Source of the DNA: Cellulomonas sp. C5510 | Lineage (GTDB): Bacteria; Actinomycetota; Actinomycetes; Actinomycetales; Cellulomonadaceae | Assembly: GCF_019797765.1 (NCBI RefSeq) | Contig: NZ_CP081862.1 | Span: forward strand, 1,364,001-1,428,000 | Length of the DNA stretch: 64,000 bases | Direction of reading: 5' to 3' | In this document: in pieces, positions 5,402-9,292 of the stretch | Position numbering within the stretch: position 1 is the first letter of the stretch | How the letters are laid out: each line of letters opens with the position of its first letter | Translations under genes and position numbers: made by a program | The notes under the pieces: model-generated | The model's database searches: none | What the model was told of the DNA's origin: nothing | Seen by the model: only the letters and a program-made list of their open reading frames with translations

Positions 5402-6406
5402 TCAGCTCGCGAGCGAGCCGTCGCTGGACAGGACGAGGCCGATCGACGCCTCGCCCTGGCGCACGGCGTCCCCGATGAGGCCGAAGTCGTACGAGCGGAA
5501 CTCGGTGAAGCTGAGCCCGTAGGTCTCCTCGAGGCCCGGCTGGCAGAACGGCCGCTCCGGGCACTCGGCGGGCCCGGCGAGCACGAGGCCGCCGCCGCAC
5601 GCGGTCGCCAGGTCGGACAGCGTCGTCACGTCGTGCTCCTCGGCGAACGCGCTGGTCACGGCGAACGCGTTCTGGTCCTGGGCGGCGGACACCGCCCCGA
5701 ACGTCAGCCCGGCGTCGGCGCCCAGCGCGGTCAGGGCCTCGACGGTCGCGTCCGGGTCGGCGCTCGCGACCGGCTCGGCGTCCGGGCCGTTGGCCGAGGC
5801 GTTGAGGAACTCCGCGAGCGTCGCGGCGTACTCCGGGGTCAGCGTGATCTGGCCGCTCTCGAGGGCCGGCAGGTACGTCTCCCGGTTCCCGATGGTCTGC
5901 ACCTCGGCGGTGTAGCCGGCCGAGCGCAGCACGGCGGCGTAGATCTCGCCGAGCGTCGCGCTCTCCGAGAAGTTCGCCGCGCCGACGACGACGCTCTTCC
6001 CGGCGCCCGCCGCGTCGTCGTCGGCCGCCAGGCCCTCGTCCTCGACGAACTGCGCGGCGGCCTCGGAGGAGGTCTGCCGGTCGATGTCGACGGCCTTGTT
6101 GAGCGCGATGAGCTTGTCGGTGTCGAGCGCCTCGGACACGGTGTCGAGCAGCGGCACCAGGCCGGGGTCCGCCTCGGCGGCCGCGGCGTTCACGGCGGGG
6201 ATCACGTTGTCGGCGTTCTGCAGGCCCTCGTCGTCCTCCAGGACGACGAGCTGGTCGCCCGCGACGGGCTCGCAGACCGCGCCGGACGCGTCGGAGCCGG
6301 AGGTGGGGTCGGCGGTGCCGCCGCCCGAGCCCGGGTCGCCGCAGGCGGCGACCAGGAGCAGGAGCCCGGCCGCCGCGGCGGGGAGCGTGGATCGGCGGAG
6401 GTTCAT
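5402..6406 (-). CDS. Osmolyte (glycine betaine/choline-type) ABC substrate-binding lipoprotein, apparently circularly permuted
   Basis: A 334-residue OpuAC/ProX-like binding protein. A signal peptide ends in LLVAACG, with Cys22 as the lipidation site. Residues about 138-334 (SVVVGAANFSES to GEASIGLVLSSDGSLAS) match the family's usual first two thirds. Residues about 51-127 (DQLVVLEDDEGLQNADNVIP to AAAQFVEDEGL) match what normally follows that point. So the C-terminal segment has moved to the front, joined by an Asp/Ala/Gly linker at about 128-136, and the chain stops where the segment would normally start. Both permease genes lie upstream on the same strand, after a 154-base gap. The fold and ligand are inferred from the family. 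Confidence 0.86.
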   Translation of the reverse strand: MNLRRSTLPAAAAGLLLLVAACGDPGSGGGTADPTSGSDASGAVCEPVAGDQLVVLEDDEGLQNADNVIPAVNAAAAEADPGLVPLLDTVSEALDTDKLIALNKAVDIDRQTSSEAAAQFVEDEGLAADDDAAGAGKSVVVGAANFSESATLGEIYAAVLRSAGYTAEVQTIGNRETYLPALESGQITLTPEYAATLAEFLNASANGPDAEPVASADPDATVEALTALGADAGLTFGAVSAAQDQNAFAVTSAFAEEHDVTTLSDLATACGGGLVLAGPAECPERPFCQPGLEETYGLSFTEFRSYDFGLIGDAVRQGEASIGLVLSSDGSLAS

Positions 6407-6560
6407 GTGCGTTCCTCTGTTCTCGGGATGGGGGCACACGGGCGGGGTCGCGGTGGTCCGGCGCCGTCGTCCGGCGCCGGGGTCGCGGAGGGCGCGCAGA
6501 GCGCGCCGTTCATCGAACCGGTGAACCAGGGCACCGGCAACCGCTGGGGACGTCGCGCGG

Positions 6561-7397
6561 TCACGAGGACCTCCTGGCGCTCGGCCCTGCCGTCTCGGTG
6601 ACGGACGTGCGGGCGGGACCCGTCGCGCTCGTCGCACCGCGGCCGGCCGGCCCGGTCCGCGCCGGGTCGGTGGAGCCGGACGAGCCACCCGACCCGCGCC
6701 CGCCGGAGCGGCCCCGGGCGGCCCGGCGCCGGGCGGACGCGCGCATCGGCTCGGGCGTGGCGGCGTGCTGGGCGAGGGCCAGCAGCCCCTCGACGAGCAG
6801 GCACAGCCCGGCGACGAGCACGGCGCCTGCGACGACCTGCCCGTACCGCTGGAGCGCCATGCCCTGGACGATGACCGAGCCGAGGCTGGTGCCGCCCACG
6901 AGCGCCGCCAGCGGCACGGTCGCGAGCACCTGGGTGGCGGCGGTGCGCAGCCCGGCCCCGACGAGCGGCAGCGCGAGCGGCAGCTCGACGAGCGCGAGGG
7001 AGCGGGAGCCCGACATGCCCATGCCGCGGGCGGCCTCGCGCACGTCGGCGTCGACCTCCATGAGACCGGTGAAGGTGTTGGACAGGATGGGCGGCACGGC
7101 GAACACCGCGACGGCGAGGATCGTCGCGCTCGCGCCGAACAGCCCGCTCGCGGCGAAGATCGTGAGCAGCGCGAACGTGGGCAGGGCGCGCGACGTGTTG
7201 GCCAGGACGACGGTGAGGACGCCTCCGCGGCGGCGGTGCCCGAGCCAGATGCCCGCGGGCAGGGCGACGAGGGCGGCGAGCAGCACGGCCAGCGCGCTGA
7301 TCCGCAGGTGCTCCGCGGCCAGGGCCAGCACGCCGCCGCGGCCCGTCCAGTTCAGCGGGTCGTTGAGCCAGGTGACCGCGTCCTGCAGCACGTCCAC
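6561..7397 (-). CDS. ABC transporter permease, OpuC/ProW type (second permease)
   Basis: A 278-residue inner-membrane permease with about five or six hydrophobic segments. The cytoplasmic coupling (EAA) motif is DVREAARGMGMSGSRSLALVELPLALPLVGAGLR. It should pair with the permease encoded just upstream and with the divergent ATPase. The C-terminal 55 residues after the last membrane span form an Arg/Gly/Ser/Thr-rich tail that is not part of the family fold. It starts four bases after the stop of the other permease, so the two are probably translated together. A 154-base gap separates it from the binding-protein gene. Confidence 0.88.
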   Translation of the reverse strand: MDVLQDAVTWLNDPLNWTGRGGVLALAAEHLRISALAVLLAALVALPAGIWLGHRRRGGVLTVVLANTSRALPTFALLTIFAASGLFGASATILAVAVFAVPPILSNTFTGLMEVDADVREAARGMGMSGSRSLALVELPLALPLVGAGLRTAATQVLATVPLAALVGGTSLGSVIVQGMALQRYGQVVAGAVLVAGLCLLVEGLLALAQHAATPEPMRASARRRAARGRSGGRGSGGSSGSTDPARTGPAGRGATSATGPARTSVTETAGPSARRSS

Positions 7398-7400
7398 GCG

Positions 7401-8147
7401 TCAGGCCTCCCGTCCGCGGGCCCACGGCGTCACCGCGCGCCCGACCAGCCACAGCACGAGGTCGAGCACCAGCGCGAGCGCGAGGCACAGCAGCGTCGCC
7501 GTGAGGATCTCGGCGTGGTACTTGTTGTTGCGGAAGCCGCGGAACATCAGGTTGCCGAGCCCGCCGTAGCCGACCACGACGCCGACCGTGACGAGCGCGA
7601 CGGTGGTCACCGTCGCGAGCCGGATGCCGGTGACGATCGCGGGGAGCGCGTTGGGCAGCTCGACGGTGAGCAGCAGGCGCAGCCGCCCGTAGCCGAGTCC
7701 GCGCGCCGCGTCCCGGACGCTGTCGTCCACGCCGGCGAGGCCCACGAGCACGTTGCGCACCAGCACGAGCAGCGCGTACAGCACGAGCCCGGCGAGCACC
7801 GGCGTCCGGCCGATCCCCGTCCACGGCACGAGCACCGTGAACAGGGCGAGCGACGGGATCGTGTAGAGCACGCCGGTGGTGCCGACGATCGGGGCCGCCA
7901 GTCGTGGACGCAGGTGGGCCAGCATGCCGAGCGGCAGGGCGATGAGGCAGGCGATGAGCACGGCCTGCACGGTGAGGCCGGCGTGCTGCTCGAGCGCCCG
8001 GCTGATGTCACCCCAGTTGCGCTGCACGTACTCCCACGACAGCCAGGGGTTCGCGGCAGGGTCGCCCGCCGCGGCGGCGGCGCGCGCCACAGTCGTGGCC
8101 GTCGGGTCTCCAGTCACCTCCGTGACGCTACCCGGGAGCTCCGACAC
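7401..8147 (-). CDS. ABC transporter permease, OpuC/ProW type (first permease)
   Basis: A 248-residue BPD-type permease. After a polar N-terminus of about 55 residues come the membrane segments VQAVLIACLIALPLGMLA, VLYTIPSLALFTVLVP and others. The EAA-type loop is SVRDAARGLGYGRLRLLLTVELPNALPAIVTGIR. It forms the presumed heterodimer with the next gene for glycine betaine, carnitine or choline uptake. It is the first gene of the minus-strand permease/binding-protein unit and is divergent from the ATPase. The 104 bases between them hold both promoters. Confidence 0.88.
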   Translation of the reverse strand: MSELPGSVTEVTGDPTATTVARAAAAAGDPAANPWLSWEYVQRNWGDISRALEQHAGLTVQAVLIACLIALPLGMLAHLRPRLAAPIVGTTGVLYTIPSLALFTVLVPWTGIGRTPVLAGLVLYALLVLVRNVLVGLAGVDDSVRDAARGLGYGRLRLLLTVELPNALPAIVTGIRLATVTTVALVTVGVVVGYGGLGNLMFRGFRNNKYHAEILTATLLCLALALVLDLVLWLVGRAVTPWARGREA

Positions 8148-8251: not shown

Positions 8252-9292
8252 ATGGCGACGGCGATCGGGTTCGAGCACGTGCGCAAGGAGTACCCGGACG
8301 GCACCGTGGCGGTCGGGGACCTCTCCCTGGAGGTGCGCGAGCACGAGCTGCTCGCCCTCGTCGGGCCGTCGGGCTGCGGCAAGTCCACGACCCTGCGGAT
8401 GGCGAACCGCCTGGTGGAGCCGTCGTCGGGGCGCATCGTGCTCGACGGCGAGGACGTCACCGACGTCGACGCGGTGGGCCTGCGGCGCCGCATCGGCTAC
8501 GTCATCCAGAACGTCGGGCTGTTCCCGCACCGCACCGTCGAGCAGAACGTCGGCACCGTCCCGCGCCTGCTCGGCTGGGACCGGGCGCGCACCCGGGCCC
8601 GCACCGCGGAGCTGCTCGAGCTGGTCGGACTCGAGCCGGGCCGGTACGCCCGCCGCTACCCCCACGAGCTGTCGGGCGGCGAACGCCAGCGCGTCGGCGT
8701 CGCCCGCGCGCTGGCGACGGACCCGCCCGTGCTGCTCATGGACGAGCCGTTCGGGGCGGTCGACCCCGTCGGCCGGCGCCGGCTGCAGACGGAGTTCCGC
8801 CGCATCCAGCAGGAGCTCGGGACGACCGTGATGCTCGTCACGCACGACGTCGACGAGGCGGTGCGGCTCGCCGACCGGGTGGCGGTGCTCAGCCGCGGGG
8901 GTCACCTGGAGCAGCTCTCGGACCCCGTCCGCCTGCTCGCCGCGCCGGCCTCGGAGGCGGTGGCGGACCTCGTGGGGACCGGCGCAGCGGTCCGGCTGCT
9001 GTCGCTCGGCACGGTCGAGCCACGGGACGTCCGGCCGGTGCGCGGGCCGACGGAGGGCACCCGGGCGGCGGCGGCGCCCGTGCGGCTCGGCGACCCGCTG
9101 GACGCCGCGTTCGCCGCCCTCGCCGCGGAGCCGTCCGGGCGCGTCCCGGTGCACGCGCCCGACGGCGGCGGTGTCGCCGGGGAGCTGGACGCCTCGGGGC
9201 TGCTCGCCGCGCTGCACCGCCTGGTGGACGACGCGCAGGAGCGGGCGACCGGCACGGTCGAACCGGAGCCGTCCGCGGGGGTGCGTGGGTAG
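8252..9292 (+). CDS. ABC transporter ATP-binding protein, OpuC/ProV type
   Basis: A 346-residue ATPase energising the osmolyte importer encoded on the opposite strand. Walker A is GPSGCGKST (38-46), the Q-loop is in YVIQNVGLFPH, the signature is ELSGGERQRVGVARAL (139-153) and Walker B is VLLMDEPFGAVD. The switch His is in MLVTHDVDEAV. After residue about 250 there is a short degenerate regulatory tail, where relatives carry CBS domains that sense ionic strength. Only a fragment ([23 protein letters not shown]) resembles CBS, so that sensing may be reduced. A -10-like TAGCGT at 8240-8245 lies six bases before ATG, suggesting a leaderless mRNA. Confidence 0.9.
   Translation: MATAIGFEHVRKEYPDGTVAVGDLSLEVREHELLALVGPSGCGKSTTLRMANRLVEPSSGRIVLDGEDVTDVDAVGLRRRIGYVIQNVGLFPHRTVEQNVGTVPRLLGWDRARTRARTAELLELVGLEPGRYARRYPHELSGGERQRVGVARALATDPPVLLMDEPFGAVDPVGRRRLQTEFRRIQQELGTTVMLVTHDVDEAVRLADRVAVLSRGGHLEQLSDPVRLLAAPASEAVADLVGTGAAVRLLSLGTVEPRDVRPVRGPTEGTRAAAAPVRLGDPLDAAFAALAAEPSGRVPVHAPDGGGVAGELDASGLLAALHRLVDDAQERATGTVEPEPSAGVRG

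Follow-up and report, generated by a model that had tools for sequence, protein, structure and literature searches.

A solute-binding lipoprotein encoded in a stretch of 64,000 nucleotides from Cellulomonas sp. C5510 (the window) is very probably a circularly permuted component of an ABC importer of the OpuC/ProX-like kind, in which the usual segment order N1-N2-C has become C-N1-N2 and in which a putative disulfide would staple the rearranged chain. The rotated order is conserved within a single clade, the canonical relatives of this clade lie mostly in matching operons, and the protein is confidently predicted to adopt one fold. Two extra cysteines are found in every member of the clade that was examined, and together in no canonical protein examined.

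We name the segments after the canonical order: N1 (about 130 residues), N2a, N2b and C. Canonical proteins then read N1-N2-C, the window protein reads C-N1-N2a-N2b (P1), and two further orders described below read N2a-N2b-C-N1 (P2) and N2b-C-N1-N2a (P3). The coordinates that the earlier note gave for the gene are correct (Table 1). A single signal peptide with the lipobox LVAAC and a single frame cover both parts of the protein, as had been claimed; read from the ATG at 6406 this frame has 334 amino acids, and the open reading frame list starts it at an upstream GTG (428 amino acids). The lipobox cysteine, C22, is invariant in the alignment of homologues (A2).

Table 1. Features of the binding protein locus, in positions of the window.
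Feature	Position	Strand	Remarks
Permuted solute-binding lipoprotein gene	5402..6406	-	334 aa + stop
Lipoprotein signal peptide and lipobox Cys, residues 1-22 (LVAAC, Cys22)	6341..6406	-	read from sequence
Cys45 codon	6272..6274	-	just ahead of the first strand, LVVLEDD; inferred partner Cys270
Segment C, residues 51-127	6026..6256	-	N-terminal here, C-terminal part in usual OpuAC/ProX proteins
New linker, residues 128-136	5999..6025	-	joins old C-terminus to old N-terminus
Segments N1 and N2, residues 137-334	5405..5998	-	C-terminal here, N-terminal and middle parts in usual proteins
Cys270 codon	5597..5599	-	between N1 and N2
Permease A (BPD_transp_1)	6561..7397	-	profile match
Permease B (BPD_transp_1)	7401..8147	-	profile match
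ATPase, divergently encoded	8252..9292	+	best NCBIfam match TIGR01186 proV, 279.6 bits, below the cut-off of 326.6

The OpuAC profile PF04069 matches the window protein with 130.1 bits (cut-off 21.2) in two stretches that are not colinear, profile positions 187-256 preceding positions 1-184. A profile search of the genome places positions 1-184 at 5408-5998 of the window and positions 187-256 at 6041-6253, both on the minus strand, where the normally C-terminal part of the OpuAC domain is encoded first, upstream of positions 1-184. A canonical control (L025) is matched from 2 to 257 in one stretch. Comparison with A. fulgidus ProX by phmmer gives the same reversed pair, with query residues 136-322 on chain residues 5-186 and query residues 53-127 on chain residues 201-274. 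The claim that residues 51-127 correspond to the normal C-terminal part of the family and residues 138-334 to its N-terminal and middle parts is thereby borne out, and the profile alignment proposed as a check of it returned two high-scoring segments in reversed order. The cut falls between ...SSDGSLAS and ...LVVLEDD, so the chain does stop where VVLED would follow. As an observation, the reversed order of the window protein is confirmed.

The second proposed check, structure prediction, points the same way. From 100 sequences, AlphaFold2 predicts one fold with a pLDDT of 90.6 and a pTM of 0.83, confident from about residue 41 onward. With each segment present once and rotated, one confident predicted fold and homologous relatives of canonical order, the protein is a true circular permutation. 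Sequential alignment by Foldseek covers only part of the chain, with TM-scores by query of 0.26-0.49 among the matches listed (50 of 624), as expected because the protein is permuted. Chains of ProX, OpuC and EgtU align with about residues 132-334 of the model only. B. subtilis OpuAC (2b4l) aligns over its residues 5-272 with residues 39-268 of the window model, and on this alignment residues 51-127 are not favoured as a separate, free domain. The OpuAC chain (to residue 272) ends where segment N1 ends; like that of the window protein, it therefore looks permuted relative to ProX, and its order would be P2, N2-C-N1, with a cut at about profile position 113. The cut of the window protein, at profile position 184|187, is not this P2 cut and is the same in 8 P1 genomes. 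The entry 5nxy, titled OpuAC, aligns with residues 137-334 of the model and was considered as a counter-case; its molecule is named OpuCC, and it aligns like OpuC. Among the matches to solved structures that were listed (50 of 624; 50 entries; 27 sequences), no chain has the full P1 order, and B. subtilis OpuAC is absent from the listed sequence matches of the window protein to solved structures.

The lipoprotein is encoded together with two permeases and a ProV-like ATPase, as in ABC importers of the OpuC/ProX type, and the assignment to an OpuC-type system stands. The genome encodes a second OpuAC protein outside the window (G000:C1:2844296-2845039), with canonical order in a frame of 318 amino acids; at E 0.001 it gave no match to the window protein. 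By its operon and its fold, the window protein would belong to an ABC importer of the OpuC/ProX kind; the osmolyte label is inherited annotation. The betaine cage of A. fulgidus ProX we take to include the tyrosines in PEY, RDDYALAV and PPYDAI. In the phmmer alignment, the tyrosine of PEY is kept and the positions presumed for the other two align with N246 and D66. Because two of these presumed cage positions are non-aromatic, transport of betaine by the window protein is not supported. The ProX of M. tuberculosis, presumably of canonical order, offers a comparison. Like the window protein, it is actinobacterial and ProX-like and has divergent ligand residues, and in the part of the report available to us it showed no detectable interaction with any of betaine, choline and carnitine (PMC5894108).

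P1 proteins contain two cysteines, one ahead of LVVLEDD (C45 in the window protein) and one between N1 and N2 (C270). Both are present in all 358 homologues, which come from the three best-120 lists of permuted queries and show conservation, not frequency, and in all 88 distinct P1 stretch pairs from the loci. They occur together in none of 69 distinct canonical pairs, two of which have one of them, and neither is present in the nearest canonical relatives (L230-L232). Two homologues without the ECP..FC pair retain C45 and C270. The window protein thus has both marks that we propose for a P1 subfamily, the order C-N1-N2 and a cysteine before LVVLEDD combined with one at the N1/N2 joint. In type II binding proteins, the canonical chain crosses from N2b into LVVLEDD at the hinge, and for this reason a bond between C45 and C270 would re-link the opened chain. 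We infer a disulfide that would reconnect the hinge where the chain was severed. The P1 proteins form one clade, and their fixed cysteines count as one evolutionary event; the cysteines could therefore be lineage markers instead.

We propose that the permuted protein would still serve as a Venus-flytrap receptor for the two permeases. The cut would have opened the second hinge crossing, from lobe II to lobe I, and the new Cys45-Cys270 disulfide would staple the new N-terminus to lobe II. The lipid anchor would then enter at the hinge or at lobe II, not at lobe I. Going by the linker alone, the gene may have arisen from an ordinary one by tandem duplication, fusion and trimming of the ends, with the signal peptide kept.

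The order seen in the window is not the only rearranged one. A scan of the phylum gave colinear matches that end early, and reading of these loci revealed the orders P2 and P3. P2 was found in the families f26 (five genomes, with a further divergent one), f50 (one), f59 (two genomes, one of which has two tandem copies), f24 (one) and f132 (two), P3 in two genomes of f84 and one of f33. With the curated profile and 18 chosen genomes, the P1 break (183-184|187-188) was seen in 8, the P2 break (first part to 111-117) in 5 and the P3 break (151-153) in 3, the other 2 being canonical controls. Of the 16 genomes that have a permuted protein, 10 encode an unbroken canonical protein as well. In each of two loci, L215:5427-7505 (+) and L214:5070-7352 (-), one chain joins a P2 binding domain to a peptidoglycan-binding domain and to a polysaccharide deacetylase, so that a solute receptor is, unusually, coupled to an enzyme of the cell wall. 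In L217 (G458), at 5624-6655 and 6659-7750, tandem P2 binding proteins lie behind one set of permease and ATPase genes, a possible stage for duplication-driven rearrangement; a reading of G458 and G478 as canonical tandem copies is ruled out, as both have the P2 order and G458 has two tandem P2 genes. A divergent member of P3 order (L216:2615-3595, minus strand) has a cysteine on either side of the cut, and these may hold the new ends together. The orders of L215 and L216, and N2a of the first G458 copy, which has no profile match, were read by eye.

P1, P2 and P3 are three cut sites within one phylum, and because relatives in this phylum carry cuts at two further sites, the binding protein of this transporter seems unusually open to circular permutation. 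The permutation may simply be neutral: the old termini would be close together, the loops of lobe II would tolerate chain ends, and the cuts would recur because permissive loops are few. We consider this to have a little less than an even chance of being right. The P2 and P3 cuts do recur at near-identical profile positions (111-117 and 145-153), and the solved-structure matches include GFP-carrying sensors made from proteins of this kind. P1, however, has been kept through several taxonomic orders with the same two cysteines in every homologue examined, and this suggests at least structural compensation.

If the three orders stemmed from one permuted ancestor by re-cutting, or if the canonical order were itself the derived one, a single ancient event would suffice, which we regard as unlikely. 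Parsimony on the full-length trees counts 7 order changes with 105 rows (P1 1, P2 4, P3 2), 8 with 108 rows and 7 with 82 rows. Canonical forms are interleaved with permuted ones, and the starred branches alone force switches between canonical and permuted order, 5 in the 105-row tree, 6 in the 108-row tree and 4 in the 82-row tree. AU tests, run on the 82-row tree after it had been seen and with groups defined by order, reject the monophyly of all permuted forms (p 7.7e-50), of P2 (p 6.7e-5) and of P3 (p 1.2e-4); the clustering of P3 on the tree was equalled in 14 of 500 label shuffles. Trees from N1, N2 or C only, which omit five rows (L214, L215, L216, L167 and L152), have 5, 8 and 5 order changes, and the low figures for N1 and C speak for an ancient event, as does the P2 order suggested in the distant B. 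subtilis OpuAC, by which permuted forms would be old in the wider family. All trees are quick ones with SH-aLRT and no bootstrap, and because they are midpoint-rooted, gains of a permuted order are not separable from losses, which also leaves room for one ancient event. The 108-row tree was thinned by clustering and holds 40 of 99 P1 and 53 of 72 canonical sequences; the 105-row tree holds 20 of these 40 P1 rows and 4 new ones, the 82-row tree 16, and L214 and L215 are omitted from both. L010, at a contig edge, was excluded from the trees, and L152/L220 (G203) starts at a contig edge.

Relatives of canonical order are close. With the permutation undone, 24 P1 rows are 43.8-59.6% identical to their closest canonical relatives, and the window protein is 53.8% identical to its best one. 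Most of these relatives adjoin the same two permeases and an opposite-strand ATPase, as in the window; in L233 the ATPase is on the same strand, unlike in the window, and in the fetched canonical loci L231 and L243 no complete operon is visible. P1 forms one clade with an SH-aLRT of 98 in the 108-row tree and 99 in the 105-row tree, and the trees from N1 only and C only each return it as one clade again (97 and 91); the short N2 tree (74 columns) gives it 3 changes. Less likely still than one ancient event is a chimera, in which the C-terminal part of another paralogue would have been joined to the front of a truncated binding protein, the parts having different origins. For 3 of the 40 P1 rows, C does find its best canonical match outside the sister clade in which N1 finds its own. 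In the other 37, both best matches fall in this same clade, 357 of the 358 homologues have every segment exactly once, and on the agreement of these matches and the single-segment trees we reject the chimera.

The search for orthologues of the same order, also proposed earlier, was productive. Three protein searches with permuted queries gave 358 different homologues, in 357 of which the P1 order is plain, and it is found in all 80 named loci kept (the best 80 of 329 confirmed relatives). The remaining homologue, P0057 (382 amino acids), has the P1 order with N1 matched twice, overlapping, perhaps by an insertion or a short-contig error. The linker between the matched segments has 5-9 residues in 357 of the 358 and 69 in one. 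P1 proteins occur in Cellulomonas, Actinotalea, Promicromonospora, Isoptericola, Demequina, Georgenia, Micromonospora, Actinoplanes, Catellatospora, Geodermatophilus, Motilibacter and other genera. Of 149 genomes sampled in the order, at least 18 have a P1 match running across the joint (one at a contig edge), as have at least 12 of 296 in the class and at least 4 of 396 in the phylum; the samples overlap in part, and the counts are lower bounds. The P1 protein of a named Spirochaetaceae MAG (L040) groups with one of Sporichthyaceae, and the genome bin is probably mislabelled. A viral contig (IMGVR_UViG_3300028422_001984, L036:1-423) has a partial relative at its edge, 58% identical over residues 196-334, which is likely host flank. 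As 357 homologues share the order and the other one differs by a doubled N1, the order is neither chance nor misassembly; with the 80 loci and the separate genomes of three samples also agreeing, the notion that a normal gene was cut and pasted in the assembly, or its start misread, is ruled out, its probability being negligible. The homologues listed from the window query are annotated with PF04069 and, where named, with ordinary transporter names, so that automatic annotation conceals the permutation.

The domain and fold of the window protein are those of the canonical OpuC/ProX binding proteins (PF04069; A. fulgidus ProX 1sw1, OpuCC, EgtU), which differ in having the order N1-N2-C, while P1 has C-N1-N2, the extra cysteine pair and a cut hinge connection. 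Actinobacterial canonical proteins of the OpuC/ProX type share with the window the adjoining permeases and ProV-like ATPase, and reach at most 59.6% identity to a P1 row. The earlier note knew of no natural permutation in the family; this does not hold, as the part of the CPSARST paper available to us reports circular permutation among the glycine-betaine-binding proteins 2B4L, 1R9L and 1SW1 (Genome Biol 2008, PMC2395249). Treponema MglB-2 (Tp0684), like the window protein, is a natural circularly permuted and membrane-tethered binding protein; it still binds its ligand, and its authors name tethering as a possible cause of the permutation (excerpts of PMC4990184). According to the same excerpts it differs from the window family in its type I fold, sugar ligand and other cut, and a single permuted order is described. 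Permuted binding proteins are thus already known. Among the matches listed from open-licence PMC papers, only the CPSARST paper was found on permutation within the family and none on the P1 cut, on repeated permutation in the family or on the cysteine pair, which seem to be unreported there.

Many permutations come to light only when distant structures are compared. In this family, relatives as close as 60% identity with and without the permutation, mostly in matching operons, permit a before/after comparison of folding, hinge motion and docking. Tentatively, and with rather less confidence than we give to neutrality, we suggest that the family is a natural laboratory of permutation: at least 4 changes, by parsimony 7 or 8, with three cuts that lie within lobe II or at its margin, each of which would transfer the lipid anchor away from lobe I, to lobe II or the hinge, and thereby alter the seating on the two-permease transporter, and with a disulfide that would replace the severed hinge peptide bond in the lineage of the window. 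Permutation in this family seems to have arisen several times, the cysteine pair is a testable case of a disulfide in place of a peptide bond, and the P1, P2 and P3 cut sites are candidate positions at which biosensors designed from the family could be split or take an insertion.
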